DNA of 64,000 bases from Candidatus Fermentithermobacillus carboniphilus (GTDB lineage: Bacteria > Bacillota > Sulfobacillia > Fermentithermobacillales > Fermentithermobacillaceae), in the NCBI GenBank assembly GCA_018208355.1, contig CP062796.1, positions 747,217 through 811,216 of the forward strand, in the 5' to 3' direction. A model generated the notes under the pieces. It was not told the DNA's origin. It made no database searches and saw only the letters and a program-made list of their open reading frames with translations. Positions 8,249 through 62,280 of this stretch are shown one piece after another. The translations under genes and the position numbers were made by a program. The stretch's first letter is position 1, and each line of letters opens with the position of its first letter.

Positions 8249-8324
8249 TGGTGGGCAGCAGAGGATTTGAACCTCTGACCTCGTGAATGTGAGTCACGCG
8301 CTCTAACCACTGAGCTAGCCGCCC
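8249..8324 (-). tRNA. tRNA-Val (anticodon CAC)
   Basis: A complete 76-base cloverleaf. The acceptor GGGCGGC pairs with GCTGCCC, the D arm is GCTC...GAGC, the anticodon stem CGTGA/TCACG holds the loop CTCACAT with CAC at positions 34-36, the T arm is AGAGG TTCAAAT CCTCT, and a CCA end is encoded. Its 3' end points toward the eroded island. Confidence 0.95.
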
Positions 8325-8774
8325 ACGCAAACCATAGTATAGCAGACAATCGCGGGCAAAACAACTTCACCGCCCGATCACGTTCTTAAATTGTCAGCCC
8401 GTGTCATGCTCTTCAGGCCATGATGCCGTTCCTCACCGCGAAACAGCGGAGGATATCCGAAGAAAATGACTGGGTCCCGACAACCTCGAAGATCGCCTGC
8501 CCCGATCCCAATGGTATGGTCATCTACCCTGTGGAAATTTCGAACCCGGATCCACAAGAAAGAACTGTGGTGCAGGAAGGCGAAATAGTAAGAGCGCAGG
8601 CAGGCTTAAACATTCAATGGCCTCGTCGCACACCAATGCTGAGAGACCATACAGGTTTTGTCCAACCCTCAACATCAGGGCAGAGCCCCTCCCCGCAGGC
8701 TTTTCTATTCAGTTAAGCGGCCGCGCCTCTGGACCACTTCTCGGCCGCAGAGATTGTACCAGCATGCACAATCT
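8325..8774. other. Intergenic stretch downstream of pdxA
   Basis: No recognised gene. A plus-strand frame of 98 codons (8420-8716) lacks a ribosome binding site and any known motif. A 9-bp perfect hairpin (AGAGATTGT/ACAATCTCT, 8749-8776) overlaps the pdxA stop codon on the minus strand and may end that transcript, although it has no T-run after it. Confidence 0.5.
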
Positions 8775-9833
8775 CTATTCGATTTTACAGCTGTCGTCCT
8801 TCCCGCACAATCTGTTTGGTGCATAGAGTCTGGCATAGAGAGAAGCCACTTTAAGCGCCTCGAGCATGCTGGTCTCGCGGGCAATGCCTTTTCCCGCTAT
8901 GTCGTAGGCCGTCCCGTGATCCACAGATGTGCGGAGAAACGGCAGGCCCAGAGTCACGCTGACGGTCCGGTCGAAATCCAGAGTCTTAGCAGCAATGTGA
9001 CCCTGGTCGTGATATAGAGAAACAACCGCGTCGTACTTGCCCGTCCTTGCCTGGTAAAATACAGAGTCGGCGGGAACTGGACCGGTTACATCATAGCCGG
9101 ACGAACGCAGTTCACAAACAGCCGGCGCTATCTCTTTTTCTTCTTCATCGCCGAAAAGCCCCCCTTCTCCACAATGAGGATTCAAACCCGCAATGGCGAT
9201 CCGGGGAGCCTTCAGACCCAGAGCGACCAGCGCGTCGTTGCACCTGGGAACGAACTCCACGAGCCGTTTCAGAGTCACAGCTTCTACCGCTTTTCTCAAA
9301 GAAACGTGCCGCGTAAGAAAGAAAATCCTGAGATTATCCACGACAAACATGGTGAGAGGTTCCGGGGTGCCCGTAAGCTCGCCCAAAAACTCTGTGTGTC
9401 CCTTGAACCCTGCGTACCCCGCTTTCACTATCGCCTCTTTATTGATTGGCGCCGTACATATTGCATCGATTCTACCTGCCATAGCAAGTCGCGCTGCCGC
9501 CTCTATCCAAATAAGGGCCGCATGCCCAGACTGGGGCGTGCCGGGTTGAAAGCCGGATGAGCCTCTACCTGAGTCCACGTCGTACACCGCTATTTTTCCA
9601 GGAATATAATCGAATGACCCAAGGTCTTCAGTCCGTTCGGTTTCGACTCGTAAGACTTCGACAGAGCCTCCGAGTCCAAGCCACTCCACGGTTTCTTGTA
9701 AGTAATCTGCATCTCCTATCACGAGGGGCCTCGAGATGTCATAGACTTCAGGATGAGACAACGCCTTTACCGTGATTTCCGGACCTATCCCGGCGGGATC
9801 TCCCATGGTGATACCTATGACAGGTTTCGCCAA
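8775..9833 (-). CDS. pdxA: 4-hydroxythreonine-4-phosphate dehydrogenase family protein (PdxA/PdxA2)
   Basis: A 352-residue PdxA-family dehydrogenase, which oxidises and decarboxylates 4-phosphorylated hydroxy acids with NAD(P). Family signatures run the whole length: GITMGDPAGIGPEITVKAL (N-terminus), ICTAPINKEA, the metal-binding His in GHTEFLGELTG, GLNPHCGEGG, and VSLYHDQGHIAAK with further metal ligands. The length matches the family. True PdxA works in vitamin B6 synthesis; the PdxA2 branch acts on D-threonate or erythronate 4-phosphate. No other B6 gene or DUF1537 kinase is adjacent, so the exact substrate is open. It is a single-gene unit on the minus strand. Confidence 0.92.
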   Translation of the reverse strand: MAKPVIGITMGDPAGIGPEITVKALSHPEVYDISRPLVIGDADYLQETVEWLGLGGSVEVLRVETERTEDLGSFDYIPGKIAVYDVDSGRGSSGFQPGTPQSGHAALIWIEAAARLAMAGRIDAICTAPINKEAIVKAGYAGFKGHTEFLGELTGTPEPLTMFVVDNLRIFFLTRHVSLRKAVEAVTLKRLVEFVPRCNDALVALGLKAPRIAIAGLNPHCGEGGLFGDEEEKEIAPAVCELRSSGYDVTGPVPADSVFYQARTGKYDAVVSLYHDQGHIAAKTLDFDRTVSVTLGLPFLRTSVDHGTAYDIAGKGIARETSMLEALKVASLYARLYAPNRLCGKDDSCKIE

Positions 9834-9980
9834 ACTCGTTCACCTCAACCTAAACTCTACTCACGTTTTAGGTACCCTCAGAAAGATGGTACTTGCCTGC
9901 TTCGGGTATCTCACTCTGAAAGCGGGCCAAAAAATTGAGCTTACGCTGGCTCCCCCTGCCAGTAGAAGCGCTGGCCGCCG

Positions 9981-10364
9981 TCATTTACCTGGCTCTTCGT
10001 CTTTTTCTTCTTCGTCCCCCTTCTCGGTTTTTGCCCTCTTCAGCTTTTCGATTAACTCCGGGATTTTCTCGGCGATCACTTCAACCGTGGTCCTGTTCCC
10101 AAGGTTAAAGACTTGTACGTCGCCGTCTTTCACCGCCACTATGGCCATTGGACGGAGCTTCGCACCAGCCCCTGCGCCTCCACCGGTTCCGCTGCCCTTC
10201 TCCGCCTTACCTTCCGAACCTCCCGAACCGAAACCGAAGGAAACCGCCTGAATCGGAACCAGCGTCACGTTGCCCACGCTGATGGGCTCGCCCACGACTG
10301 TCTTGGTCGTCATGAACTTTTCAAGTTGCGACGCGATAGCATCAAGAGCCTCCTTATGCTCCAC
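9981..10364 (-). CDS. gerW: GerW/YtfJ-family sporulation protein
   Basis: A 127-residue protein of the GerW (YtfJ) family: the core segment TTKTVVGEPISVGNVTLVPI, then a Gly/Ser/Ala-rich loop (GSGTGGGAGAGAKLRPMAIVAV) and NLGNRTTVEVIAEKIPELIEKL, followed by a charged tail rich in Glu and Lys. In Bacillus, GerW is made during sporulation and needed for germination with L-alanine. The start is the GTG at 10364 (GGAGG, 9-base spacer), not the longer upstream frame. It follows the DUF2953 gene by about 110 bp in the same direction, the same pairing as ytfI-ytfJ in Bacillus. Its presence supports a spore-forming host. Confidence 0.88.
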   Translation of the reverse strand: MEHKEALDAIASQLEKFMTTKTVVGEPISVGNVTLVPIQAVSFGFGSGGSEGKAEKGSGTGGGAGAGAKLRPMAIVAVKDGDVQVFNLGNRTTVEVIAEKIPELIEKLKRAKTEKGDEEEKDEEPGK

Positions 10365-10473
10365 TATCCACAACCTCCCTCTTCTTCCATCATTCAGTTC
10401 TAAACTACCATTCCCGAAACGTCGTCCCGCACCACCGTTCAAAGAGCATCCTCTTTGAATGACTCAGTCAAAA

Positions 10474-11322
10474 CTACTTACGCCGGTCCGCCGATAAAGT
10501 ACCGGCTCTCCGGCTCTTCTTCATCCCCTCCCTCCACAAAGGTCTTATCTCAGAAGACAGCAAAAACTTCCCAATGATCCACAGGAGCGCCGCCGGGAAA
10601 ACCCAGGTCTCAATCGACCCTCTCACCAAGAGCATCTCTTCCTCGAAGTTCGGCGAAAATCGCAGTCCCGAAAGACCCACGGAACCTGAAAAAGCAGATG
10701 CGACGCCGTATGCCATCCCTGTGCACGCCGGATCTCCAAAGCCGAACACGATATCGGCGTCTGCCGATAGGTGGGCTGCACTCAAAAGAGAACGTGCCGT
10801 CGAGATGACTCGGCCCCTCAGTTCCGGCTCAAACCACCGCTTGAAGTCCCGGAGCAAAAATCGCCCCCAACCCCTCCTGCCTCCCTCTGGTACCCGGCCC
10901 TCCTTTTTTCCGGGGGCCACCGGCTGGGGCTTTTTTCCGGATCTTTTCGCCGTAAGTTTTTTCACCTCAAGTCTTCTCCCCGTGAACTTTTTCACCCTAA
11001 TCCCCAGAACACTTATCTCAGCCGGCCTCCCTATACCGGCGATAACCCGGACGGCCCCACGCAGGATGCTTCCGCAAAATGATAGGCTTCCGTGGAATGA
11101 CACCTGGTCAAGTATTTCGTCCAACTCGCCTCTTATACAGACATACCCAGACAGGCGGATACCAACTGGAAGGAAAAAGACAGCCAGAGAACCCGCGACG
11201 ATGAAAAAGATGACGATGGCCAGTATTCTCCAGACCAAAGTAGAGACGACCGTCAAGATCCCCCCAATACGGAACCTGCCCTCCCTCCATAAGCTTCCGG
11301 CATCATCAAAGGTCTTCTTCAA
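10474..11322 (-). CDS. DUF2953 membrane protein (YtfI-like)
   Basis: A 282-residue protein with one N-terminal membrane segment (about residues 22-52, VVSTLVWRILAIVIFFIVAG), a basic middle (KKFTGRRLEVKKLTAKRSGKKP) and a C-terminal region with the DUF2953 signature DPACTGMAYGVASAF...LRFSPNFEEEMLLVRGSIE. Its function is unknown. In Bacillus the homologous ytfI lies next to ytfJ/gerW and is thought to belong to the sporulation programme; the same neighbour is seen here. A 12-bp identical motif, GACTCAGTCAAA, occurs both 3' (10461) and 5' (11448) of this gene. The true start could be the ATG used here or a nearby downstream codon. Confidence 0.75.
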   Translation of the reverse strand: MKKTFDDAGSLWREGRFRIGGILTVVSTLVWRILAIVIFFIVAGSLAVFFLPVGIRLSGYVCIRGELDEILDQVSFHGSLSFCGSILRGAVRVIAGIGRPAEISVLGIRVKKFTGRRLEVKKLTAKRSGKKPQPVAPGKKEGRVPEGGRRGWGRFLLRDFKRWFEPELRGRVISTARSLLSAAHLSADADIVFGFGDPACTGMAYGVASAFSGSVGLSGLRFSPNFEEEMLLVRGSIETWVFPAALLWIIGKFLLSSEIRPLWREGMKKSRRAGTLSADRRK

Positions 11323-47083: not shown

Positions 47084-47854
47084 CTAACTGTTCATGAAAT
47101 TCACAAGAAACGCCGTCAGTCTGTCCAGCGCGGTCTCTATTGCCACCTGACCAAGTTCAACGTTAGCCTGACTCGCGTCACCTAGAGCACCGTTAGCCGT
47201 TATTTCCTCCCAGAACCTTCCCTCTTCCACGGGGACCGCCGAGAGGTGTTTTGCCAGAGCTTCATCGTAAATTTCACCCTTGGTGAGATACTCGGTCCTC
47301 ACCGTCTCATGGCACAGGTAGAGACACTGGGACATCTCGCTTTCGCATGCGTGACCTATCATTGGCGACTTTACCCTCTGCTTGATCACATCGTCCGCAA
47401 CCGAAGTTGGAGATGCCCACGCCGCCTTGGCGTCCATTTCTTGCCTGATGCGATTAACTACAATGGTCAACGCGGGCTTATTTCCCCCGTGACCGTTGAT
47501 AAAGAAAAACCTCCTGATCCCGTGCTGGTAAAGGGACCATACGATATCCATGAGCACCTGTATGAAAGTCTCAGCGCGCAGACTTATGGTTCCCGGAAAG
47601 TGCATGTGATGCCCGGAGATCCCGAAGGTCACGCATGGCGTTACCAGAGCGTGAGGGTAAACGCGTTGGGCCAGCCGTTTGGCGAACTCCCGTGCTCTTG
47701 CCGAATCGACCTCGAACGTTCCGTGCGGCCCGTGCTGCTCAGTCGAACCGGTCGGAATAATGGCGACCTTGATATCAGGGAGAGCCGCCTTGACTTCTGG
47801 CCACGTCATGTCATACAGGTAGAGACTCTTGGGATGTGCTACATTTTGGTCCAT
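47084..47854 (-). CDS. Creatininase-family amidohydrolase
   Basis: A 256-residue metal-dependent hydrolase of the creatininase family. Ligands appear in the expected order: Glu and His in IPTGSTEQHGPHGTFEVDSA (with the Asp), His in FFINGHGGNKPAL and Glu in SPMIGHACESEMSQ. Family members open cyclic amides (creatinine, formamide intermediates, mycofactocin precursor peptide), so the substrate is open. The ATG has GGAGG 8 bases ahead. It is the last gene of an operon whose other members are four membrane proteins of unknown function, so it may process a product related to their cargo; that is inference. Confidence 0.88.
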   Translation of the reverse strand: MDQNVAHPKSLYLYDMTWPEVKAALPDIKVAIIPTGSTEQHGPHGTFEVDSARAREFAKRLAQRVYPHALVTPCVTFGISGHHMHFPGTISLRAETFIQVLMDIVWSLYQHGIRRFFFINGHGGNKPALTIVVNRIRQEMDAKAAWASPTSVADDVIKQRVKSPMIGHACESEMSQCLYLCHETVRTEYLTKGEIYDEALAKHLSAVPVEEGRFWEEITANGALGDASQANVELGQVAIETALDRLTAFLVNFMNS

Positions 47855-47871
47855 AGATCATGCCTCCAACA

Positions 47872-48480
47872 TCACCGGGGTTTGATGAGGGGTATCCAGT
47901 CCTGGAACAGTAGGAACAGGCGGCCGATCAGAAGCGAAATTCGCCCCATGATGCCTGCTCCAAACGCAGCACCTAGAGTCACCATGATTACCCATTTTCC
48001 GGCTTCGGCCCCTGCCCGAAGGACCGGATTGGGACGCACGGTGAAGATGAAATACGATAGTGTTGCCAAGGTACCCAAGGCGATTATGACGTTATCCAGT
48101 GTCGTCAGGCTTATCATAGAAGCACGGAGTTGCTGAACGAACTGCTCGGTCACTGCGGTGCGGGCGCTGAGGGCAGCTCCAATCGCCGCGATAACTGCCA
48201 CCGGGATACGCCTGAGCCATGCGTACCTAGCACCGATGTACGGGGCAAACAGGCACAGTCCGATAACTGCCGGGATGAGCACCCACCATGATCCTTTCTT
48301 TGTCAGCGGTTCCCACACTTTAGAGACCACGTTGGTATATCCCATCACCACCGTGTACCCAGCGGCTACTCCGACATAAAGGTGCTCCATGGCCTTGTAG
48401 AACTCGTTTTCCTTGAAAAGATACGAATATGCCATGATGGTGAGGATAGAAGCTACCCAAACCTTCGGATCAGAGCTCAT
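47872..48480 (-). CDS. Polytopic membrane protein of the DUF6754-type operon
   Basis: 202 residues with about five or six hydrophobic segments (VWVASILTIMAYSYLF, HLYVGVAAGYTVVMGYTNVV, SWWVLIPAVIGLCLFAPYIG, IPVAVIAAIGAALSA, NVIIALGTLATLSYFIFTV, GKWVIMVTLGAAFGAGIMG). I do not recognise a family by name. Start ATG 48480 overlaps the stop of the preceding gene (ATGA) and has GGGGG ahead. It probably forms a membrane complex with its neighbours. Codon use and spacing are like the rest of the operon. Confidence 0.75.
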   Translation of the reverse strand: MSSDPKVWVASILTIMAYSYLFKENEFYKAMEHLYVGVAAGYTVVMGYTNVVSKVWEPLTKKGSWWVLIPAVIGLCLFAPYIGARYAWLRRIPVAVIAAIGAALSARTAVTEQFVQQLRASMISLTTLDNVIIALGTLATLSYFIFTVRPNPVLRAGAEAGKWVIMVTLGAAFGAGIMGRISLLIGRLFLLFQDWIPLIKPR

Positions 48481-49310
48481 TTTACAGCCCCCTTCTTAAC
48501 TGGCTTCGCCGAGCGCGTCAAGAAATATGATAGGTTGCCCAGGACTACGGACATGATGATCAAAAGATGTCCCATGCTCTGGGCGTCCATACTCGCCACA
48601 CCCATGCCGGGGGATTTCATGAGGATCTCATATTCCGCCCCACCGCGAAGTCCGACCAGGATTCCGGCCAGCTGACCCGCGTTGACGTAGGGCTCAGCCT
48701 GGGGTGCAATGGTGTTGATGAGCCCCCCGATGATCGGGATCTTGTACTGCGTCACCTGCCGGACGTACATGTCTGAGTTCTGCGTCGAGAAGAAGATATA
48801 CATCTTCACGTCGCCGGCGCTATGGATACCTTCGAGGACCGGCAATTCGGAAGTGGCATTGCCCCGGTAGTCTGTGGGATAGGCCTTCTTGATATCGCGA
48901 CAATACATTGCGATGGCATTTTCTCCGCCTGCCAGGAACCCGAGATTGCAGAAATCTACCCCGTATCGCTTGCCTGCCTGTTCCCACGGCTTAACCAGAG
49001 ATTCGATGATCATCGGGCCTTCGGTCACGGTAGTCACGAATATGGCTTTGGCCCCCTTGTCGAATAAGTGCTTGAGGATGGCCACAGCCTGGGGTTGCAC
49101 GTCCGCCGCACCCGAAACCGAGTAGGAGATATCAACGATCACTCTGTCGCCGGCCTGCAATTTGTCGATTACCGAGAATGACCTTCTGGTGTGTGCTCCT
49201 ACCGATATGGGGAGCCCGAGCGGCTTCATGAGCGGTATGAGCAGCGATAATATAAGGAGAATGTAGATTACACGATTATCGATCTCGCCAAGTCTTTTGA
49301 AAAACTCCAC
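48477..49310 (-). CDS. Two-span membrane protein with large soluble domain
   Basis: A 277-residue protein with an N-terminal membrane helix (VIYILLILSLLIPLM), a soluble domain of about 200 residues with Rossmann-like alternation (GDRVIVDISYSVSGAADVQP, GAKAIFVTTVTEGPMIIESL, YGVDFCNLGFLAGGENAIAM, VKMYIFFSTQNSDMYVRQV) and a C-terminal helix (GHLLIIMSVVLGNLSYFLTR). The layout matches the DUF6754 protein upstream in the same operon, so the two could be a divergent pair. The start is GTG (GGGGGA, 6-base spacer). Function unknown. Confidence 0.75.
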   Translation of the reverse strand: MEFFKRLGEIDNRVIYILLILSLLIPLMKPLGLPISVGAHTRRSFSVIDKLQAGDRVIVDISYSVSGAADVQPQAVAILKHLFDKGAKAIFVTTVTEGPMIIESLVKPWEQAGKRYGVDFCNLGFLAGGENAIAMYCRDIKKAYPTDYRGNATSELPVLEGIHSAGDVKMYIFFSTQNSDMYVRQVTQYKIPIIGGLINTIAPQAEPYVNAGQLAGILVGLRGGAEYEILMKSPGMGVASMDAQSMGHLLIIMSVVLGNLSYFLTRSAKPVKKGAVK

Positions 49311-49322
49311 TATTCTTCCCCC

Positions 49323-49946
49323 TTATTCGGCTCCACCGCCGAGATGAGACCGGTCGATTCCAGTCAAAACCCGCAAGCTTACGCCGACCATACCTACCGC
49401 GGTGCTTATGAGAATGCCTCTGGAGCCTGCAAGATTGACTACACCCATTATCCAATCTGCGATTTTCGGAAAGCGCGACCACATGGCTTCACCGATGGGT
49501 GCCCGTCCCAGCATGAGTAACACGCCTGCGATGAGAAGCGCGGCTGCCTGAGCATTCTTTGCCCTAAACGCACGGTATGATGCAGAAGCCAAGTGAAATG
49601 CTGTCATAGCGTAGAATGCCGATGCAAGCGGGTTGAAAATGGCCTGGAAGATAAAGTCAAATGGCTTGGACTGCCTGCCCAAGACAATTCCTGAGAACAC
49701 GGTGATAAGCATCGCAGCGACGAGTATGAAACTGTGGATACTGTTTCGGTTCCATTTGCCGATGCGGCTGACGTGGATCCTTAAGAGGTTCACAGCCGCC
49801 AGCGCAAGAGCAAATGCAGCTATAATCAGGCCCCAGTCCTGGATCTCAGTAGCCATGGTCCTGATAGAAGGGATTTTGAAGAAGTAATCTATCAGGAGCA
49901 CCAGGCCAACCAGGGCTGAAATCGCAACCGGAACTTCGCGTTTCAA
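49323..49946 (-). CDS. Polytopic membrane protein of the DUF6754-type operon
   Basis: 207 residues with about six hydrophobic segments (PVAISALVGLVLLIDYFF, WGLIIAAFALALAAVNLL, SFILVAAMLITVFSGIVLG, IFNPLASAFYAMTAFHLA, AAALLIAGVLLMLGRA, GILISTAVGMVGVSLRVL). The TTG at 49946 follows GGAGGGAG with a proper spacer; the earlier in-frame TTG overlaps that binding site and is rejected. No family recognised. It lies 12 bp before the two-span protein and 58 bp after the DUF6754-type gene. Confidence 0.75.
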   Translation of the reverse strand: MKREVPVAISALVGLVLLIDYFFKIPSIRTMATEIQDWGLIIAAFALALAAVNLLRIHVSRIGKWNRNSIHSFILVAAMLITVFSGIVLGRQSKPFDFIFQAIFNPLASAFYAMTAFHLASASYRAFRAKNAQAAALLIAGVLLMLGRAPIGEAMWSRFPKIADWIMGVVNLAGSRGILISTAVGMVGVSLRVLTGIDRSHLGGGAE

Positions 49947-50004
49947 ACGTTCTCCCTCCAATCTGTTAGCGCTTCAATTCGATGATCTGTACTTCCCGCA
50001 TCCA

Positions 50005-50778
50005 TCAACGTTTAAGGAGCGTGACAAGCCAATCGTTCTTGAAGGTCCTCATCACGATACCCACAAGCACAAGCATTAGTGACAGCATTTTTACGTAGTC
50101 CTGACCTGCGATGCTGCCGATCCTCATCGGATCTTTCGAGATGAATGCGCCGGCAGCCAGGAATTCCTCGCCTATCATGGTGTAGTCGCATGCCGCAACG
50201 AAGAAGGGTATCTGGAAATAGTTGGTCGTGCCGGCGATGGAAATTGAATTCACTGCCGCAGCCGCCTCTGCAAGGATTATGGCCTCGGCAGCGAAGTAGC
50301 CCGTGTAGAAGGTGGCGGCAGGCTTTTCTCGCTGTACAAGTCCTAAAGTGGCAGCGGTAAACGCAAACTGCACATCCGAAGTGAAGTAAACCGATTCGGG
50401 GTCGTAGGCGTCTGGCTTGCCCTCAGTCAGGTATGCGTTCCTCAGGACTTCGAGGGTAAGGGCGTAAGTATTAGCATGGCCTACCGTCACGACTATTGTG
50501 GTATCATAGCGGGCAGCCAGCCGCCCCACGTGAGACAGAAGGTCGAGACCTGCAATGGTAGGGGGAGCAGTAGTTCCTGCGACATCAGCGTATCCCGGGC
50601 TGTAAAGAACAGGCTTGCCCATTTCCGTAGCTCTACCTATGGCTTCTTCCACTGCATCCAGACCTGCTATAGGCCTGAAATAAAACCCCTTTCTTCTCGC
50701 CCTGATAAGGCCATACTGGATGCACGCAAAAATGATTATCAGGGCCATGAGACCAGAAAGTCTTCCCTGGATTAGCAA
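50005..50778 (-). CDS. DUF6754-type membrane protein
   Basis: 257 residues: an N-terminal helix (GLMALIIIFACIQYGLI), a soluble domain of about 190 residues and a C-terminal helix (VKMLSLMLVLVGIVMRTF). The soluble domain (GKPVLYSPGYADVAGTTAPP, TIVVTVGHANTYALTLEVLR, ATFYTGYFAAEAIILAEAAA, SISIAGTTNYFQIPFFVAAC, DYTMIGEEFLAAGAFIS) is what I recall as the DUF6754 domain; no biochemical role is known to me. The start is TTG 50778 (GGAGG, 9-base spacer), since the longer frame would hide this site. First structural gene of the operon, 100 bp after the RpiR-type regulator. Confidence 0.75.
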   Translation of the reverse strand: MLIQGRLSGLMALIIIFACIQYGLIRARRKGFYFRPIAGLDAVEEAIGRATEMGKPVLYSPGYADVAGTTAPPTIAGLDLLSHVGRLAARYDTTIVVTVGHANTYALTLEVLRNAYLTEGKPDAYDPESVYFTSDVQFAFTAATLGLVQREKPAATFYTGYFAAEAIILAEAAAAVNSISIAGTTNYFQIPFFVAACDYTMIGEEFLAAGAFISKDPMRIGSIAGQDYVKMLSLMLVLVGIVMRTFKNDWLVTLLKR

Positions 50779-50877
50779 CCTCGGACACCTCCTGATTTTC
50801 TTTCGCGGGAACTTCAATTTCAGCAGTCAGACCTCATCAGCATTTATGAGAGAAACGACACCCCCTTTCCGAGGACT

Positions 50878-51765
50878 TCACAGTTGGAATTTACCGGCAT
50901 TGATACCGGGGTGGTACGTGTTCAACATTTCCTCCATATCTTCGAGGGACTTGCGCACCCGGTTCCTATCGAGGTGGACGATGATTTCGAGGATCGCATT
51001 TATGAGGGCGAGCGTACCTGTGTGTGAAAGGCCGAACGATGGACCACTGGTCTTTGCAAGAAGCACCTTATCGGCAAGGCGAGCGACCGGAGCCAAGACA
51101 TCGTCGGTAATGGCAAGCACCTTCACTCCTCGTGCCTTAGCCATCCTCACGGCCTGGAACGTGAAGACGCTGTAGCGCGAGAACGTAATGGCTATGACAA
51201 GATCCTGAGGCTTTACGTGCCTCATTTGGTCGAACAGGCTGTCATCCGCCAGGCTGAGGCAATGAGCATTGCCCAGCATTTGACTAAGATTGTGTGCTAG
51301 GAACTGGGCCGGAGCACTGCTGGCACGCAGGCCGACGATATATATCTGAGCAGCAGCGAGAATCATAGATGCTGCCGAAACGAGCGAGTCCTGGGAATTT
51401 AGCCTGAAAACGCAGTCTACCGCGTCGCGGTCACGCTGCCTGGATTGCTCGATCACGGCTGATTCATCGGAAGGGTCCGGCGTGGAATCGAGCCTCCTCA
51501 CCATAATGGCATCTAGTTTGCGCCTGACTTTCTCCTGGAGTTCCGATTGCATCTCGGAGAAGCCCTCATAACCCAGGGCTTCAGCCAACCTGATGACGAC
51601 AGTCTCGCTCACTCCGACTATCTCGCCTACCTTTGCGGCTGACATGAACGCTACTTCATCCCAGTGATCCACGATGAACCTGGCGACTCTAGCGCGCGCG
51701 TCGCTGAGCTCAGGGTAGGCCTTCTTAATGCGTTCAAATATCGAGTGCTTGGTAGAAGTATCCAT
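50878..51765 (-). CDS. MurR/RpiR-family transcriptional regulator
   Basis: 295 residues. The N-terminal HTH_6 domain (KKAYPELSDARARVARFIVD, FMSAAKVGEIVGVSETVVIR, LAEALGYEGFSEMQSELQEK) is followed by a SIS sugar-phosphate-binding domain (AAQIYIVGLRASSAPAQFLA, DLVIAITFSRYSVFTFQAV, AKARGVKVLAITDDVLAPVA). Such regulators respond to phosphosugars or related metabolites and usually control adjacent transport and catabolic genes; here that would be the DUF6754-type membrane operon directly downstream. The ribosome binding site is weak. The gene starts a leftward unit after a 255-bp gap. Confidence 0.92.
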   Translation of the reverse strand: MDTSTKHSIFERIKKAYPELSDARARVARFIVDHWDEVAFMSAAKVGEIVGVSETVVIRLAEALGYEGFSEMQSELQEKVRRKLDAIMVRRLDSTPDPSDESAVIEQSRQRDRDAVDCVFRLNSQDSLVSAASMILAAAQIYIVGLRASSAPAQFLAHNLSQMLGNAHCLSLADDSLFDQMRHVKPQDLVIAITFSRYSVFTFQAVRMAKARGVKVLAITDDVLAPVARLADKVLLAKTSGPSFGLSHTGTLALINAILEIIVHLDRNRVRKSLEDMEEMLNTYHPGINAGKFQL

Positions 51766-54649: not shown

Positions 54650-55420
54650 TCAGACTCCAAGCACTTCCTTTGCAGCAACGTAAAGCTCGCGTACCTTACC
54701 AGGCATCGTCTTGCCGCTTGACTTGTCAATTATGGACGAGTAGACATGCGGTATAACGTACGTCGCACCCGCAGAAAACGCCGTCTCCAGGACCCTGCGC
54801 AAGTTCTCGACTGTTATGCCCCCGGTGGGCTCGAATACCGGTATGCCTTCGGCGGAACACGCCGAGACCAGCGCTTTCATCTCTTCATAGCGCTCGTTCA
54901 GCGGGAAAAACTTCACCGACAAAAGCCCCTGCTCTTTAAGAATAGCCACGGCAGCCTCGCACGGTATTTCGGCGGGACCTCTTTTTGAGCTCAGGGGACC
55001 CGTGGCAATGTTCACGAAACCCGGTTTTCCGGTGGGAGACACGAGGCTGTTTATGAGGGGTATGTCCTCTCCGTATCTTCCTTTGAGGACCGCAGCTGTA
55101 TAAGAAGAAAGCGGGAAAACCTGGTTGATGTGGGCCGGCCGCGCTAAAAGCGCAACCTGGATTACCGCCTCCCACTGGGCCGGGTCTCCCCCTCCGAGAC
55201 CCAGTGATACCGACGCCCCCGCGCGCGAAAACCTCAATACCGCCTCAGCACCGCTCTTCGCATCCGGGTAGTCTCTGGTCAGCACTCCTATGAGAGCGTG
55301 TCCCTCGCAGGCGTCCATGACTTCCACCAGGTTCTCCTCGTCGCGGGCAAGGAAGTTAAACATGACTTTCCCGCCGAGCCAGTTCCAAGCGCTAAAATCA
55401 CCATGTTTTGGCTGAATCAT
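54650..55420 (-). CDS. DgaF-like KDGP aldolase family protein
   Basis: A 256-residue TIM-barrel aldolase of the family (PF07071) containing Salmonella DgaF, which splits 2-keto-3-deoxy-6-phosphogluconate into pyruvate and glyceraldehyde 3-phosphate. Visible are LIGVLTRDYPDAKSGAEAVL, AGASVSLGLGGGDPAQWEAV, PLINSLVSPTGKPGFVNIAT, the Lys-containing QGLLSVKFFPLNERYEEM (Schiff-base candidate) and GIPVFEPTGGITVENLRRVL. The ATG at 55420 has GGAGG 7 bases ahead and lies just after the DgaE-like stop. It is the last gene of the operon and gives the presumed end step of the pathway. Confidence 0.88.
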   Translation of the reverse strand: MIQPKHGDFSAWNWLGGKVMFNFLARDEENLVEVMDACEGHALIGVLTRDYPDAKSGAEAVLRFSRAGASVSLGLGGGDPAQWEAVIQVALLARPAHINQVFPLSSYTAAVLKGRYGEDIPLINSLVSPTGKPGFVNIATGPLSSKRGPAEIPCEAAVAILKEQGLLSVKFFPLNERYEEMKALVSACSAEGIPVFEPTGGITVENLRRVLETAFSAGATYVIPHVYSSIIDKSSGKTMPGKVRELYVAAKEVLGV

Positions 55421-55422
55421 AT

Positions 55423-56523
55423 CTAACCCTCCAATAGCTCACGTATGCGTTTTATGATGATCTCCGAATCTTGCGGCCGTAGAGGTCTTGGGTCGATGGC
55501 GACACAATTAAGGTTCAGGTAGTGGTCGCGAGTGAATATGGCCACGGAGCCCTGGCGTAATTGTGACACAAACTCGCGGGCGCTTATCCTGGCATCTTCC
55601 GTGAATTCCATCCACACTCTCGGAATAGGCCGTCCTGCCTCATCGTATTTCTTACTTACCTTGATACCGCGTATGCCGCTTATGCCCCTCATGATGGTCT
55701 CAACCACAGCTTCTCTCTCAGAGAGAGCATCTACGTTCCCTGCCACATACTTTTCGAGGGCACATAAAAGACCCGCTATGGCTTCCTTTCCGACCTTCAT
55801 CGAGCGACCGATGCCACGGTACTGGAGCCTCACACCATCGATGAGCCCTTTCTTGCCGCACACAAATCCCGATGTAGGCCCACCAACGGCCTTTGCGCCT
55901 GAGTACACTACAAGATCCGCTCCGAGGTCAATGTACTTATGGAGATCCTCTTCGGCTGCAGCATCCACTATCACCGGAAGACCGTGCGCGTGAGCTATTT
56001 CAACGTACTCTTCTACAGATAGCATACCCTTCTGGACACAGTGGTGAGACTTTACATATATAAGGGCTGCCGTGTCCTCATCGATGGCCTCTTCCACATC
56101 GGCACGCGTCACCATGTTGGCACACCCGACTTCGACCGGGATACCCCCAGGTATCCGTATCATCTGAGTGACCGGGGCGCCAAAATCCACTGCATGTCCT
56201 TTCTGGATAATGACCCTGTTCCTGAGCCCTTCCGTCACCGGCAGTTTCTTGATAAGCGCCTCCTCGGTCCCCGTCATGCACGAGGCGACAGAAAGGGCGA
56301 TCCCAGCTGCGGCACCCACCGTGGGACATGCTGCTTCCGCCCCTACTAGAGCGGCAATCTTCTTTCCCGATTCAACGATGAGTTCCTCCATGTCGAAGTA
56401 ATCTTGCGCCGCCTCCGCCATGGAACCTGCTACGTCGGCTGTAACGGCAGTACCTCCAAGATGTGTCATCTTTCCACTGGCATTTATTACCCGGGTGAGC
56501 TCCAATCCATCTCTCCAGCTCAT
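55423..56523 (-). CDS. DgaE-like PLP-dependent ammonia-lyase (SelA-like fold)
   Basis: A 366-residue fold-type I PLP enzyme. The cofactor Lys is in ADLVVYSGAKAVGGPTSGF, the Asp in PVIVDAAAEEDLHKYIDLG and the start is TRVINASGKMTHLGGTAV, all typical of DgaE and SelA-like proteins. DgaE removes ammonia from D-glucosaminate 6-phosphate to give 2-keto-3-deoxy-6-phosphogluconate, the substrate of the next enzyme. Family members act on related 2-amino sugar acids, so the exact compound is not certain. The ATG has GGAGG 7 bases ahead. It is separated by 184 bp from the DUF4310 gene upstream and abuts the aldolase gene. Confidence 0.88.
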   Translation of the reverse strand: MSWRDGLELTRVINASGKMTHLGGTAVTADVAGSMAEAAQDYFDMEELIVESGKKIAALVGAEAACPTVGAAAGIALSVASCMTGTEEALIKKLPVTEGLRNRVIIQKGHAVDFGAPVTQMIRIPGGIPVEVGCANMVTRADVEEAIDEDTAALIYVKSHHCVQKGMLSVEEYVEIAHAHGLPVIVDAAAEEDLHKYIDLGADLVVYSGAKAVGGPTSGFVCGKKGLIDGVRLQYRGIGRSMKVGKEAIAGLLCALEKYVAGNVDALSEREAVVETIMRGISGIRGIKVSKKYDEAGRPIPRVWMEFTEDARISAREFVSQLRQGSVAIFTRDHYLNLNCVAIDPRPLRPQDSEIIIKRIRELLEG

Positions 56524-56707
56524 ACAAGCACCTCCGAACCAGAAGCGCAGGAAAGGGACTGGTGGCTGAGGCTACCCTTGCCCGGTCTCCTGCATCTTTT
56601 GGTTTTGCTCCGAACTCCCTTTTCGAACGACGAGAGGCCCGGCTCGTCCCCAAAAGTCAAGACCACCGGACAGACCACCGGACCTCCTTCTTTTTCTCAC
56701 TTTTTTC

Positions 56708-57337
56708 TCACTTTACCGGGAAAATCGTCCCCAAGATCATTGCCCCGAGGATCGCTCCCCCGGGTATAGGCTTCTTGAGATAGTAGAACAACGCCGCCCC
56801 AAGAAAAGCACCGATTCCCGCCGGAATGCTGTAGCTGATGGCCGAAATGATGATGAGGGGACCCAGGTACCGACCCATCGCGTTCCCTGCACCCATCATG
56901 ACGTCGGTTCCCGCCGCCGAGAGGCCTTGCGGCATGGATTTCCTGACAAGCAGTATGACCAGCCCTACAACAAGACCGGCAAGGGCGCCGAAGAGCACAG
57001 CCGTGGTGAAATTCTCGATGAGACCTTTATAGCCCGAGGCAATGAGTAAGGCGGGAATCCCGATCCCGACGCCCGTCATAAGGGAGCCACCAATGTCCAG
57101 GACACCGACAAGGGGGCCTTCCAGCACCCGCGCGATAAGAAACCCTGCGGCAAAACTCGCTGCAGCGGCGTAGTCCCCTGTTTGAAGCCCATTTGACAGC
57201 ATCTGAACCACGAATATCTCGTTAAACGCGCCAACCCTGTTTGTCAGGAAGAGGCTTGTCCCACCCATAATTCCCGCACAAGCAACCGCAACTATCAAAG
57301 GGAAGGCGAGATCCGTCATCAAGAAACTTTTATGCAT
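56708..57337 (-). CDS. DUF4310 membrane protein
   Basis: A 209-residue integral membrane protein with about six Gly/Ala-rich helices (AFPLIVAVACAGIMGGTSLF, YAAAASFAAGFLIARVLEG, VGVLDIGGSLMTGVGIGIPA, AVLFGALAGLVVGLVILLV, MGAGNAMGRYLGPLIIISA, AGIGAFLGAALFYYLKKPIP). It belongs to DUF4310, a family known to me from one conserved cluster (named after Enterococcus faecalis EF_0829-EF_0839). The ATG has GGGGG 8 bases ahead. It probably forms the membrane part of a transporter with DUF4311. No transport motif is assigned. Confidence 0.88.
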   Translation of the reverse strand: MHKSFLMTDLAFPLIVAVACAGIMGGTSLFLTNRVGAFNEIFVVQMLSNGLQTGDYAAAASFAAGFLIARVLEGPLVGVLDIGGSLMTGVGIGIPALLIASGYKGLIENFTTAVLFGALAGLVVGLVILLVRKSMPQGLSAAGTDVMMGAGNAMGRYLGPLIIISAISYSIPAGIGAFLGAALFYYLKKPIPGGAILGAMILGTIFPVK

Positions 57338-57364
57338 GAGTTCATCCCCCTAGATTGAACCTCG

Positions 57365-58090
57365 TCATAGCGCGAAAGCCTTGAAGAACTTAACGTGGAA
57401 CCCGCGGAAGTACGCTATGCTTGCGAAGAGTATCACGACTATCGTCAAAAGGATCTTGACCGACTTATTCCAGCCATTCTCCTCGACGTTCTTACCGATT
57501 ATGATGCCGAGAACGCATCCAGGTACCGCGTTGCCCATGATCATTTGAGCTAGCCCGCCCAGCAGTGTGGCTGCAACACCAGACTGAACGCCAGCATCAA
57601 GAGCCGCAAGCCAGAAGATAATGGGCATTATGGGGTTAATAAGCCAGTTGGACGCCTGGCCCAGCACTTTTGAAGCAACCACTGCCATGCTGGAGGGCAC
57701 GGCAGACGAGATGGTGTTGAGCAAGGTTACGACGACCGCACCGACTATAGCTCCCGCCATACCCATGAGTCTTGTGTTGTTCAAGGGTTCAGAGGTGTCT
57801 TTGGTCTTCAGAAGCACCAGGGCGCTCGCCCAGTTCGGGACTATTCGGTGCAACACGTCCTGGGTCAGGGCGCCCGCACCCACGACAGACGCCGCAGAGT
57901 TAAAAAGGAATCCGAGCCCGAACATGAAATGGGAAACGGGGTCCCCTTTGCACGCGTTGAGCTCTCCGAGGGTCCGGAAGGCGCCCATAGACTGGATCTC
58001 CGGGGCGTGGAACATTCTCACGGCCCCGACTGTCACTGCCCAGCCAGCCAGCGCACCCACTATCACGCTTTTCACTACCAGCGATAACAT
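57365..58090 (-). CDS. DUF4311 membrane protein
   Basis: A 241-residue protein with about six membrane helices (VVKSVIVGALAGWAVTVGA, MFGLGFLFNSAASVVGAGAL, LMGMAGAIVGAVVVTLLNT, LINPIMPIIFWLAALDAGV, VAATLLGGLAQMIMGNAVPG, ILLTIVVILFASIAYFRGF). The DUF4311 features are the FHAPEIQSMGAFRTLGELNA loop and NGW before the last helix. Start ATG 58090 with GGAGG ahead, 4 bp after the DUF4312 stop. Always found, as far as I recall, with DUF4310 and DUF4312, consistent with a heteromeric uptake system. Function unproven. Confidence 0.88.
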   Translation of the reverse strand: MLSLVVKSVIVGALAGWAVTVGAVRMFHAPEIQSMGAFRTLGELNACKGDPVSHFMFGLGFLFNSAASVVGAGALTQDVLHRIVPNWASALVLLKTKDTSEPLNNTRLMGMAGAIVGAVVVTLLNTISSAVPSSMAVVASKVLGQASNWLINPIMPIIFWLAALDAGVQSGVAATLLGGLAQMIMGNAVPGCVLGIIIGKNVEENGWNKSVKILLTIVVILFASIAYFRGFHVKFFKAFAL

Positions 58091-58094
58091 TTAT

Positions 58095-58400
58095 CTATTC
58101 CTCCTCTAGCCTCTCTGGCAACTTCACGTATTTGGCAAGGACTTCTATGATTGCCGTAATCACGTACCTTTCACGCACCCTGGGAAACAGGATCTCCAGG
58201 AATCTTTCGGTGTAAGTCTGCCTTTCGAGTTTCTCAACCTTGAATGCAACCGGCTCTAGATATACGAGAGGGTGCCGCTCTTCGGCGTAGATCTTTCGCC
58301 TGAGTTCTCCGAAGCACTTCTGCACAGCCTGGGCAAACGTTTCGCCGCTGCCTTTCACGTGAATCTCACGAGTTTCAGTCCGCAGCAGGTCTTCAGCCAT
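58095..58400 (-). CDS. DUF4312 small soluble protein
   Basis: 101 residues, soluble, mixed alpha/beta: TREIHVKGSGETFAQAVQKC, FGELRRKIYAEERHPLVYLE, PVAFKVEKLERQTYTERFL, FPRVRERYVITAIIEVLAKY. One Cys (about residue 29) is present, but no His or Cys motif comparable to PTS carriers stands out. DUF4312 is a companion of the DUF4310/DUF4311 membrane proteins. It may be a cytosolic subunit of the transporter. The ATG has AGGAGGAG 4 bases ahead. Confidence 0.85.
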   Translation of the reverse strand: MAEDLLRTETREIHVKGSGETFAQAVQKCFGELRRKIYAEERHPLVYLEPVAFKVEKLERQTYTERFLEILFPRVRERYVITAIIEVLAKYVKLPERLEEE

Positions 58401-58410
58401 TTAGCTCCTC

Positions 58411-58815
58411 CTACGAGTTTGAGCCTGACCCCGGCTTTTCCGCCGCTTCCTGTTCCTCAAGGATTTTCCTGTACTCCTCCACCACCCGTCGCCCAAGTTC
58501 CTCGCTGTCCAGGAACCCGAAGCCCAGGACTCTCGCGCCATTCCTCAGGGCCGTGATCCCGGATTCAATTGAACGCAGATGGTGTTCAGCCTTGTATCCG
58601 TACTTTGTCTGCGCCACGATGGCCCCGGCACCACCGCTTCCGCAAAACGAAAGCCCGAGGTCGGCATCGTTTTCTTTCATATAGTCTCCGACTTTCATGT
58701 CTGCAGCCATACCAGGGATGTGGATGGCAATACCGCCAGCTTCTTCCACGCCTTTGACGACTTTGCGGGCCCTGCCCAGCCGGTCGCCTATGACAACCTT
58801 AATTTTCCTGTCCAT
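58411..58815 (-). CDS. Glycine-rich SFCGS family protein (looks RpiB-like)
   Basis: A 134-residue soluble protein named for its SFCGS motif (PF14272). Start ATG 58815 (MDRKIKVVIGDRLGRARKVV) has GGGGG ahead and overlaps the PRD gene. Its arrangement matches ribose-5-phosphate isomerase B/LacAB proteins: an N-terminal strand followed by G-D, then a central D-L-G-L-S-F-C-G-S-G-G-A-G-A segment that parallels the RpiB catalytic CGTGIG loop, then GARVLGFGFLDSEELGRRVV paralleling GARVIG...A..IV. This suggests a sugar-phosphate isomerase-like fold with a retained active-site Cys. That is a by-eye comparison. Its established family has no known function. Confidence 0.82.
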   Translation of the reverse strand: MDRKIKVVIGDRLGRARKVVKGVEEAGGIAIHIPGMAADMKVGDYMKENDADLGLSFCGSGGAGAIVAQTKYGYKAEHHLRSIESGITALRNGARVLGFGFLDSEELGRRVVEEYRKILEEQEAAEKPGSGSNS

Positions 58816-59242
58816 CTTGTTTACCCCCGTTTCTGCTAGCTGCAATGTGTGTCGCAACCAGCACCGCTTCAGGTCTCGTGAGAATGGCGCCCATCCGCCT
58901 GTACAGAGGCTCAAGCCCACTGAACACGGCGTTTATTAGGCTTTCGCCCACCTCCTTTTCTATCGCACTCCCGACATCGGAAACGGACTCACCTCTGCGC
59001 GCTCTAACCACGCAACCCACCATGTGAGAGAGAAACGCTTTCAGGGCCGGATATTCAAACCGCACCCCTTGTTGTCGGGCCACTTCTATGGCGCTTTCTG
59101 AAAGGTTCCAGGCATCTTCGGCTACATCGTCCGGCACCGCCTGTTCCGCGCAGATTTCCAAGAACGCTTTCCGCGCCAATTCCTCATATGCACTAAGCTC
59201 TAAATTGCGTTGCTGTGGCACTTTCACCGACGATTCCAACAT
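58799..59242 (-). CDS. Stand-alone PRD domain protein
   Basis: A 147-residue all-helical protein with a single PTS regulation domain. The two conserved His are in YPALKAFLSHMVGCVVRARR and RPEAVLVATHIAASRNGG. There is no DNA-binding or PTS module. In related clusters this protein (EF_0829 type) accompanies DUF4312 and the SFCGS protein, so it may be a phospho-sensing regulatory subunit of the transporter. The start follows AGGAGG directly after the amidohydrolase stop, and its 3' end overlaps the SFCGS start by 17 bp. Confidence 0.85.
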   Translation of the reverse strand: MLESSVKVPQQRNLELSAYEELARKAFLEICAEQAVPDDVAEDAWNLSESAIEVARQQGVRFEYPALKAFLSHMVGCVVRARRGESVSDVGSAIEKEVGESLINAVFSGLEPLYRRMGAILTRPEAVLVATHIAASRNGGKQDGQEN

Positions 59243-60370
59243 CTAGACCTCCTGAGCACTCAGCAAAATCTCGCCGCCCTTCATGACCATGACCGGGGCC
59301 AGCCTTAAGGTTGACTTCAACTCATTCCCATCTGAGTCGAAAAGCAAGGATTCCCCTTCCACGAGACGCCAAAGTACCAGGTCGGCGACGTAACCCGGTG
59401 CTATCGCGCCCAAGCTGTTCAGCCCGAGATTCTTCGCCACGCGCGTGCTAGCAAGTTCTAGAACCTCTACCGGGTCCATCCCCAGTGCCAGAAATTTAGA
59501 CAATGTGAGGGGCAGGTCGCCTACCTTGGAGATACTCTGCAGGTGGAGGTCCGAGGATATTGAGTCGGGACCGAATCCTTTATCCAAGCATTTCCTCATC
59601 ACGTTTACGTTGAAACTGGCGTTGCCATGACCAACGTCAAAGAGTACCCCTCTTTCCCGGGCTTCCATGGCCTCCGGGATGACGTCACCGGATTCGGTCA
59701 GGATTCCCCCAGGTTTGCCGTGGAAAGCATGGGTAACTATATCACCCGCTCCTAGAAGGCTTAAAACATCCGGAAGATGAGGAGGGGCGTTTCCGACATG
59801 TACCATAACCCTCATACCTAACCTTCTCGCCATGGCGACTCCCTGGCGTATCGGTTCTATCCCCATCTTGCCAACCACCGAAGAACTGGCCCTGAGTTTC
59901 ATCCCCACAACAAGCTCGTTCCTTGCAAAAGGCTCCAATTCGTCATAAGTGGCGAGTTTTTCCGGTGCGTCCAGTTCGCTCAACGAACCCGCAAGCCCGT
60001 AGCGGGCAAAGTTAATCCACGAAAGCACCCGCGTTTTCTGAGTCAAAATAGCCCTATCCACAAATTCTTGAAAGTTCAGAGGACCCGCCGATCCTGCATC
60101 GATGACCGTAGTCACCCCTGTGCGGTACCCTACTTCGTCGGCCATAAGCCCCAGCACAGCGCCGGGGTAAACGTGGACGTGAAGGTCCACCAACCCGGGA
60201 CTCAGAAGATTTCCCCGTGCATCTATTGCGGTTTCACCCTCCGAGAGTTCAAGATTCGTCCCGACCTCCGCTATCACGCCATCGCGCACTCTCACGTCGG
60301 CAAGACCACGGAAAGACGGGATACTTCCCGCAAGACGCGCGTTCTTGAACAGAATTCCTTGCGTCATCAC
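59243..60370 (-). CDS. Amidohydrolase/deacetylase family metallohydrolase (EF_0837 type)
   Basis: A 375-residue TIM-barrel amidohydrolase. The metal ligands are HVH in LSPGLVDLHVHVYPG, Lys in VVGMKLRASSSVVG (carbamylated Lys candidate), His in MRVMVHVGNAPPHLPDV and DIVTHAFHGKPGG, and Asp in DSISSDLHLQSI. It belongs to the group annotated as EF_0837/AHA_3915 type, often named deacetylase. In this operon it could remove an acyl group from an amino-sugar acid before the DgaE-like step. The start overlaps the regulator stop (ATGA). Its specificity is not shown. Confidence 0.87.
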   Translation of the reverse strand: MMTQGILFKNARLAGSIPSFRGLADVRVRDGVIAEVGTNLELSEGETAIDARGNLLSPGLVDLHVHVYPGAVLGLMADEVGYRTGVTTVIDAGSAGPLNFQEFVDRAILTQKTRVLSWINFARYGLAGSLSELDAPEKLATYDELEPFARNELVVGMKLRASSSVVGKMGIEPIRQGVAMARRLGMRVMVHVGNAPPHLPDVLSLLGAGDIVTHAFHGKPGGILTESGDVIPEAMEARERGVLFDVGHGNASFNVNVMRKCLDKGFGPDSISSDLHLQSISKVGDLPLTLSKFLALGMDPVEVLELASTRVAKNLGLNSLGAIAPGYVADLVLWRLVEGESLLFDSDGNELKSTLRLAPVMVMKGGEILLSAQEV

Positions 60371-62280
60371 CAGTCACTTCCTTTGTACCTGAGCATGCAG
60401 ATGTATTCTTGGGGAGGTAGGTCTGTACGTAAGAGGGCCTCCACTCGCTCGAAACATTTTTTCAAGACAGCCATGAGCGCGGCATCGTAGTCACATTCCG
60501 GTTCGGGGGGCGCGAACTCTCCGTTTCGCCACCGCGGGCAAGCGAGGAGAGCATGGATTAGAAGTCCGGTTTGCTCATCGGCCGTAAGCCCCGCTTCTTT
60601 GCCAAACTCGGTGCAAGCGCGAATGACCTCGACCTGAATCTCATCATCTGTAAGCGGAATCAAATCCGTTGGAATGCCGGGTGGTTGACTCATCTGTGAC
60701 GCAGGAGACAAACCCGGTACGTTTGAAAGAGAAGTCCCCTTGGCCCGGAAAGTGCTCGAGGCATCCTTGCGGGCATTACAGCCTAAAGCAGGTCTTTCCA
60801 GAGACTCGAGCGGGTCAGCCGGTACCGGAGACCTCTTAACCTTTGCACAGGCATCTTTTATCCTCTTCAAATCCCCCTCACCGAGAAGCGGGGACACGTG
60901 GACCCATGGTATCCCCGGTTCCTTTCCCGGGGGAAATCCGACCGTACTGATTATCAGCTGAGGTCGCTTTGCTTCGACCTCGCGTTCAAGTTCCGAAAGC
61001 GACGTTACTCCATCCAGCTGAACTTCGGGGCACATCGACTCGAGCCGCGCTGAAAGAAACCTGGCAGTTCCAAGTCCGGTGGTACACACTACCAGGGCCC
61101 TGATCTTCCGGGGGGCAATAAGGCGTTGCATCGACGCCCCGATATGCATCGCCACGTACGCGACTTCATCGTCGGAAATGAGCCCGGAAAGAGAAGGGCA
61201 CGACTCACACGCCCTTTTGGCTACGTTAAAGAGGCCAGGATATTTCTTCATGATCTCTTTCTTAAATGGGTTATTGATGATAACGCCTGCTTCGGAAGCA
61301 CTGAGGGTCCAAGCAAGGTGAAACTTCAGGGATAAGAGTAGACCGTGGTCCTCTTCTACGTGTATACCGGTCTCAGCCGAGACCCTTTCTATGATCTCTT
61401 TGGCAGCGTCATGCGCTCGTCGCAACAATTGTTTATTGTGCGCCGAAAACGATTTGTCACCTTCTGCCACCCGGGCTAGCGATTCCTGCCTCACTTTATC
61501 TGCTTCAAGATAGATGGCGACATAGAGTTTCTCATGCTCGGGCAAGGAAAGCCCCACAACCGACCCTACAGAGGCCACGATCTTTCCGGCGCGGTCAAGC
61601 ATCTCCGGGTCCGATGGCTCCGGGAGCGTGCCCGGTAATATCTCCGTCCCCGGTGAGTTTCGCATCTTCTGAATTGATGCCCAGAGGTGCATCGCTATAG
61701 CAGTTTTCGTGCCGTCGAGGAGCCCGTACGAACCGGTCGAGTCCACTTCTTCTATAGCTTTGCGGATTACCTTAAAATACATCGCACCAAGCCCGGACTC
61801 GGGGTTTTCGACAAGGGCCGCAAGAGCCCTCCGGAAAGAAGTCTCGCTCCCCTCGACCTTGACGAGCCCTCTCCCGGCAGACTTCAGTTCCACGCCGAAT
61901 GTCCTAAGTTTACTCCCGCAGCGCCTGAGGGATTGCCGGACCGTATTCCTTGAGACCGCGAGCTCCGCCGAAAGCTCCTTTATCGAGAGGGGATGTGGAT
62001 CGGTGAGCAATCTGTACAGGATGAGATGCTCTCTGGAGACGACATCATCGGGGCACGAGCTCAACAACCTGGATAGTGCCTGGAGAAGCTTCTGGATAGC
62101 CTCATCCGGTCCGCTCAGCCAGAGACCTACGCCCGGTTTCGACTCCAGGACGACATCAGTCGCGGTGTCCCGGATCCAGTCCCGGACTTTTCCGAGGTCG
62201 CTCCGCACCGTGCGAACGGTCACTCCGAGCTCCCTCGCGATTTCAGAAGCTGTTACAGGCGCGTTTGAACCTGCTATCAT
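60367..62280 (-). CDS. BglG/LicR-type PRD transcriptional regulator
   Basis: 637 residues: HTH (PVTASEIARELGVTVRTVRSD), second HTH (LSIKELSAELAVSRNTVRQS), PRD1 (about 175-290; LLDGTKTAIAMHLWASIQK, LPEHEKLYVAIYLEADK), PRD2 (about 300-395; DHGLLLSLKFHLAWTL, SDDEVAYVAMHIGASM) and an EIIB-like domain (IRALVVCTTGLGTARFLSAR, with the phospho-Cys). The C-terminus, after a low-complexity linker, is a further short helical PRD-like piece (ADEQTGLLIHALLACPRW) rather than an EIIA domain. It likely activates the nine-gene operon it heads. The start is uncertain: ATG 62280 has a weak binding site and the conserved N-terminus continues about 15 codons upstream. Confidence 0.88.
   Translation of the reverse strand: MIAGSNAPVTASEIARELGVTVRTVRSDLGKVRDWIRDTATDVVLESKPGVGLWLSGPDEAIQKLLQALSRLLSSCPDDVVSREHLILYRLLTDPHPLSIKELSAELAVSRNTVRQSLRRCGSKLRTFGVELKSAGRGLVKVEGSETSFRRALAALVENPESGLGAMYFKVIRKAIEEVDSTGSYGLLDGTKTAIAMHLWASIQKMRNSPGTEILPGTLPEPSDPEMLDRAGKIVASVGSVVGLSLPEHEKLYVAIYLEADKVRQESLARVAEGDKSFSAHNKQLLRRAHDAAKEIIERVSAETGIHVEEDHGLLLSLKFHLAWTLSASEAGVIINNPFKKEIMKKYPGLFNVAKRACESCPSLSGLISDDEVAYVAMHIGASMQRLIAPRKIRALVVCTTGLGTARFLSARLESMCPEVQLDGVTSLSELEREVEAKRPQLIISTVGFPPGKEPGIPWVHVSPLLGEGDLKRIKDACAKVKRSPVPADPLESLERPALGCNARKDASSTFRAKGTSLSNVPGLSPASQMSQPPGIPTDLIPLTDDEIQVEVIRACTEFGKEAGLTADEQTGLLIHALLACPRWRNGEFAPPEPECDYDAALMAVLKKCFERVEALLRTDLPPQEYICMLRYKGSDW

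Follow-up and report, generated by a model that had tools for sequence, protein, structure and literature searches.

Which of six closely spaced genes belong together, and what their four membrane proteins could do, is the question raised by positions 47084 to 51765 of a 64,000-nt stretch of Candidatus Fermentithermobacillus carboniphilus (CP062796.1, positions 747,217 to 811,216; hereafter the window, whose positions serve as coordinates for this locus). A preliminary description made from the sequence had proposed an operon controlled by an RpiR-family regulator, with four membrane proteins and a creatininase-family enzyme. Its six minus-strand open reading frames (ORFs), their span, the ATGA overlap and the 12-bp gap were all confirmed by the ORF coordinates. 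The true unit is formed by the four membrane protein genes, designated A, B, C and D, with variable passengers, and not by five or six genes. The four genes A-B-C-D form an indivisible membrane cassette that was amplified as a unit.

The conserved unit

Gene A (50005 to 50817, minus strand, as are all genes of the group) encodes a DUF6754 protein in which two membrane helices flank a Rossmann-like domain and which matched PF20539 over profile positions 9 to 255 of 257 (E = 4.9e-85, 285.2 bits against a gathering cut-off of 27). From hydropathy, B (49323 to 49961) is a polytopic membrane protein with about six hydrophobic segments and D (47872 to 48480), whose start overlaps the stop of C, is a second polytopic protein. 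In its model, C (48477 to 49310) repeats the layout of A, with a Rossmann-like domain between two membrane helices. Neither the Pfam and NCBIfam searches, at their cut-offs, nor the PDB sequences gave a match to B, C or D. The intergenic distances in the direction of transcription are 60 bp from the RpiR gene to A, 43 bp from A to B, 12 bp from B to C, a 4-bp overlap (ATGA) of C and D, and 17 bp from D to the creatininase gene.

A was followed by B, C and D in fixed order in 191 of the 208 A genes examined, and the remaining 17 lay mostly at stretch ends or in broken copies. The earlier view of the four membrane proteins as one unit was thereby supported, and so was their lack of a match to the known transporter and secretion families tested. 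The survey of DUF6754 neighborhoods, which the preliminary description had proposed, found A-B-C-D kept together, whereas the five-gene set did not hold, as creatininase and RpiR vary. In the own genome of this small, heat-loving bacterium (2,316,832 bases, one contig), 14 DUF6754 places and 14 C places were found. Reading of the loci resolved these into 12 intact cassettes, a further one whose A is truncated (L053), and remnants near 391-392 kb and 1,199-1,200 kb. The decaying copies (L053 8178-10589, L056 8901-10231, and L048 11233-12325) show truncated or broken A or C and fragments of A and D, pointing to birth and death of copies.

Of 101 relatives, 45 carried A and 46 carried C, at near-equal copy number per genome, ranging from 5 to 16 copies within the same family and 23 to 25 in genome G028, and often amounting to one elsewhere. 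A scan of species genomes gave at least 570 confirmed places, 80 of which were kept and represent Bacillota, WOR-3/Stahlbacteria, Neomarinimicrobiota, Zixibacteria, Cloacimonadota, Latescibacterota, Poribacteria, Planctomycetota, Gemmatimonadota, Armatimonadota, Riflebacteria, Bdellovibrionales, Eisenbacteria, Coatesbacteria, Muiribacteriota, and others. A was found in none of 14 well-known control genomes. The archaeal occurrence is confined to one contig of a Methanomethylicota metagenome-assembled genome (L192), for which misbinning is possible; the cassette there (2911-11111) adjoins OadA/PYC-type carboxylase, KipI/PxpBC-type and S-Me-THD-like genes. A decarboxylase-type sodium pump, prompted by the OadA/PYC-type neighbor, was dropped as a candidate because this is a single locus with no recognized membrane decarboxylase subunit.

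In genome G400 (single contig, 3.8 Mb), seven consecutive cassettes stand head to tail with only cassette genes called between them (L225 12365-18543 and L226 1-15929; G400:C1, about 2,074-2,097 kb), and genome G441 (L232) has three cassettes plus one inverted. The protein distances of A, B, C and D correlate over all loci (r = 0.64 to 0.77) and among the own-genome paralogues alone (r = 0.42 to 0.67, Mantel P ≤ 0.005), which is what cassettes moving and diverging as whole units should show. Over 138 cassettes, mean identity was lowest for C (34.6%) and highest for A (47.6%).

The partner module

The cassette is genetically coupled to a separate module composed of a MutL-like protein, assigned through its family to the ASKHA proteins, a barrel-sandwich protein (BSH), and a small protein (S). 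In genomes with a single cassette, the three genes often stand directly beside A-B-C-D. The MutL partner matched PF13941 (E = 3.7e-123) and has weak similarity to Hydantoinase_A; BSH has about 375 to 450 residues, with a barrel-sandwich domain weakly matching RnfC_N and a C-terminal part that weakly resembles KOW domains, and S has about 95 to 130 residues. In the own genome, a MutL-BSH-S-MutL-BSH set stands alone at 1,617-1,625 kb, far from the cassettes, and in G400 the module is likewise distant from them.

BSH was present in all 46 cassette-bearing relatives versus 5 of the 55 others. Across 398 Bacillota genomes, it was found in 30 of 32 DUF6754-positive versus 1 of 366 negative genomes (Fisher 1e-41), the two exceptions among the positives being G192, which has a strongly diverged A with no MutL or BSH beside it, and G118, which is 78% complete. 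The cassettes multiply, with 12 intact in the own genome and 7 in tandem in G400, and the closest-matching full-length BSH stays single, the pattern to be expected if substrate-specific membrane parts share one partner.

Further MutL-BSH pairs occur in the own genome with other neighbors and without S (L237 6572-13460, L238 5738-9001, L239 8826-12276, and L240 6714-10041). A GlmL-type gene (L241 9059-15895), as read from sequence, lies beside likely ornithine aminomutase genes (OraE, OraS, and OrtA/B) of amino acid fermentation.

Structure and topology of the subunits

AlphaFold2 models of A and C, built on 28-sequence alignments, agree with the paired proteins of helix, large domain and helix noted earlier. 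In A (mean pLDDT 90.8), helices 19-42 and 230-258 flank a single Rossmann-like domain with a six-strand alpha/beta core, and in C (mean pLDDT 93.9) the Rossmann-like domain, also single and six-stranded, lies between a membrane helix and another long helix. The membrane topology was derived from charge and hydropathy, and for A also from signal-peptide evidence, not from a trained predictor. The motif R-A-R-A-G follows the first helix of A in most members, and A of other phyla has a signal-peptide-like start and an outer FN3-like domain (seen by eye, with a weak Pfam match in L160), which would place the N terminus outside; the Rossmann-like domain of A should be cytoplasmic. C has a positive N terminus and a strongly positive tail, and this charge would keep both ends inside; its Rossmann-like domain should face outside. 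Large additional domains of A in other phyla (L162 5345-7768, L202 4940-7753, L189 5888-7804, and L206 3546-4913) comprise a weak PQQ/BamB-like match, long outer stretches lacking annotation, or an extension at the C terminus.

The earlier proposal of a symmetric complex was not sustained by profile comparisons, which were not significant for either A with C or B with D, even with more than 170 sequences. The common fold class in the models and the opposite predicted topology of A and C nevertheless hint at pseudo-symmetry, without demonstrating it. Invariant residues of B are H63, R130, R181, R197, and R204. No cysteine is invariant in the alignments of A, B, C or D, which thus give no sign of a conserved iron-sulfur (Fe-S) site.

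The best Foldseek matches, with E = 7e-3 for A and E = 5e-4 (TM < 0.4) for C, were not confident relatives. The VIA-align matches of A and C with Z of 8 to 12 were assorted Rossmann-like proteins (Sir2, MthK RCK, CODH epsilon, and transhydrogenase dIII) and were not taken to identify a function. Weak matches to TMD0_ABC or Nucleos_tra2_N in a few B homologues (best E = 2e-4 to 8e-4) were treated as composition and are absent from the window B.

Passenger genes

The most upstream gene (50878 to 51765, minus strand) encodes the RpiR-family regulator, with HTH_6 and SIS domains in Pfam, and is locus-specific. No RpiR homologue was found at L139, the closest orthologous cassette, or at any other cassette locus fetched. 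Pattern scans gave no promoter signal before the RpiR gene on its strand, the promoter and terminator scan not exceeding the shuffle level, and the inverted-repeat scan gave only short palindromes upstream of it and none between it and A. Control by RpiR, as read from adjacency, is putative.

The gene at the downstream end (47084 to 47854, minus strand) encodes a creatininase-family metal-dependent amide hydrolase of the NGHGGN subtype (PF02633, E = 1.6e-68, 231.1 bits against a curated cut-off of 31.3). Its metal-site residues E39, H41, D50, H122, and E173 are kept in five homologues. It shares the family metal-site motifs and NGHGGN with creatininase, MftE and ArfB, but falls under every NCBIfam equivalog cut-off (MftE TIGR03964, 117.7 bits against 172; creatininase TIGR04448, 103.6 against 235); the nearest named type is MftE. 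The earlier link of the cassette to an amide hydrolase gained support from L139 (A 65% identical), which adjoins a creatininase orthologue (60% identical), there at the opposite cassette end and 25 bp ahead of A. Only one further cassette among the loci fetched, the distant L082, has creatininase homologues, with an AstE/AspA-family gene likewise upstream.

The neighbors of other cassettes include D-aminoacylase-type amidohydrolases, M20, DUF885, beta-lactamase-like proteins, DUF1028 with IclR, S58, and asparaginase II. Seven of 13 own cassettes have an M20, Amidohydro_1 or creatininase gene no more than 5 kb away versus 2.7 expected (P = 0.01, several distances tried). In the multi-copy clade, 11 hydrolases were counted in 203 kb within 1.5 kb of cassettes versus 11 in 648 kb of outer flanks, an approximately 3-fold difference (P = 0.007).

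In two related genomes, the cassette is followed on the same strand by response-regulator-like and histidine-kinase-like genes (L234 4483-8130 and L235 4035-8093). Near the window cassette, a second minus-strand cluster (54650 to 58920 and 59243 to 62280), perhaps a further uptake system, contains by sequence a likely DgaF/DgaE-like aldolase/lyase pair, an amidohydrolase, a PRD-type regulator, and several small membrane or uncharacterized proteins resembling DUF4310/4311/4312 by eye.

Comparison with known systems

A to D matched no transporter family (ABC, ECF, or other curated) above cut-off, and alignment members of B, C and D show weak scattered matches. The Pfam entry for DUF6754 covers A only and describes neither B, C and D nor the cassette with its partner module; in the literature, DUF6754 yielded no paper, and other keywords gave nothing relevant. 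The MutL partner belongs to the GlmL/MutL family (PF13941), but with 215.5 bits it stays under the GlmL equivalog cut-off of 475 (NF040745) and also under the Or-4 cut-off, and, unlike the GlmL-type copy of the own genome with its adjoining mutase genes, the cassettes have no identified mutase subunit beside them. PADLOC anti-phage models matched none of creatininase, A to D, MutL, BSH or S. In these comparisons, B, C and D, the cassette as a whole, and the coupling to MutL/BSH match nothing known, and the make-up is new.

A proposed importer and its alternatives

The favored reading, given a probability of roughly 40%, is a multi-subunit importer in which exchangeable ABCD cassettes would work with the shared cytoplasmic MutL/BSH module on amide-linked amino acid compounds as cargo. 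The outward domain of C would recognize or gate the substrate, B and D would form the path across the membrane, and the cytoplasmic domain of A would dock to MutL/BSH, where ATP bound by the ASKHA protein would energize or reset the complex. In the peptide-fermenting clade, cassettes may have diversified for different compounds such as peptides or N-acyl or cyclic amino acids, and a local hydrolase, here the creatininase-family enzyme, would cut the imported compound. Co-inheritance, amplification as a unit, and the coupling to MutL/BSH were computed, and the domain architecture comes from structure prediction; transport, opposite topology, the substrate class, and MutL as energizer are what we infer.

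Importers with a shared ATPase are known from group II ECF transporters and MsiK-dependent ABC importers. The proposed importer would work like these in having exchangeable membrane specificity parts and one shared cytoplasmic partner, but neither an ABC ATPase nor any ECF T or S component nor a binding protein gave a match, and the partner is of ASKHA type. The closed genome of strain Bu02, probably this organism, was described as that of a predicted peptide- and amino acid-fermenting bacterium. Its published survey names ABC transporters for peptides and amino acids, with the cassettes unmentioned in the passages covered (PMC10215811).

Several points weigh against an importer. Transport, ATPase activity, complex formation, and the substrate of ABCD are predictions from sequence. 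The hydrolase enrichment is modest, with several distances tested and loci of related genomes that are not independent, and hydrolases are not enriched beside the cassettes of distant phyla, so that the ancestral role may be another one. The fold modeled for A and C is generic and names no ligand. The co-occurrence statistics for BSH and DUF6754 ignore shared ancestry, in a sample that spans many families, and the further, more diverged MutL-BSH pairs in the own genome mean that a shared partner is not the sole reading. ASKHA proteins elsewhere are chaperones or reactivases and not transport ATPases. The wider proposal of a new class of transport machine, in which one shared ASKHA-type (Hsp70/actin-fold) ATPase would energize interchangeable ABCD cassettes by way of a barrel-sandwich adaptor, different from ABC, ECF, TRAP, TTT and PTS systems and spread over many bacterial phyla and possibly archaea, is doubtful.

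The alternative of a ligand-sensing or signaling complex appears unlikely. C would sense an outside ligand, B and D would relay its state, and A would pass it to MutL/BSH, with many copies for many ligands. The single soluble domain on each membrane side, the many paralogues with variable C, the large outer domains, FN3-like or other, that A carries in other phyla, and the two-component gene pair directly downstream in L234 and L235 would suit such a sensor, but two polytopic subunits per complex would be unusual, no output domain is recognizable, and catabolism fits the local hydrolases better.

A membrane machine for protein processing, chaperoning or envelope assembly, with ASKHA as Hsp70-like motor and the hydrolase neighbors incidental, is quite unlikely. 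Substrate diversity accounts better for the amplification into diverged paralogues and for the local hydrolases, although the MutL-family protein with weak Hydantoinase_A similarity beside single-copy cassettes, the large outer domains on A, and the many phyla carrying the module without evident peptide specialization would agree with it.

By analogy, an energy-converting or ion-pumping complex like Rnf/Nqr would share with these a soluble barrel-sandwich protein, a pair of polytopic subunits each about 200 residues long, and anchored domains on both membrane faces, a likeness of general make-up. For BSH, the L068 protein barely passed the RnfC_N cut-off (26.3 bits against 25.6; E = 7.7e-6) and that of L205 stayed below it, with no Fer4 or 51K domain listed. 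A to D match no Rnf/Nqr family, B and D gave no RnfA/D/E or NqrB/D/E membrane-subunit family in the Pfam and NCBIfam searches, no conserved cysteines and no flavin or Fe-S motif were seen in A to D, and copy-number amplification and hydrolase neighbors would be atypical. Such a complex is improbable. The RpiR-controlled five-gene operon around one amide substrate, with four dedicated membrane genes, is very improbable, since despite the tight spacing of creatininase and RpiR with the cassette and the creatininase beside the orthologous one, the four-gene unit exists hundreds of times, with creatininase homologues at only two other cassettes among the loci fetched and RpiR at none.

The locus thus belongs to a conserved four-subunit membrane cassette that occurs in many poorly studied bacterial phyla and in up to about 25 copies per genome, three of its subunits being without known relative. 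Its near-perfect co-occurrence with the MutL/barrel-sandwich module turns several uncharacterized genes into one testable system. If this is not an importer, a conserved membrane function is still to be described; if transport holds, the system would form a new transporter family or perhaps a new class; and if the importer is true, a whole route of nutrient uptake would be absent from transporter inventories.

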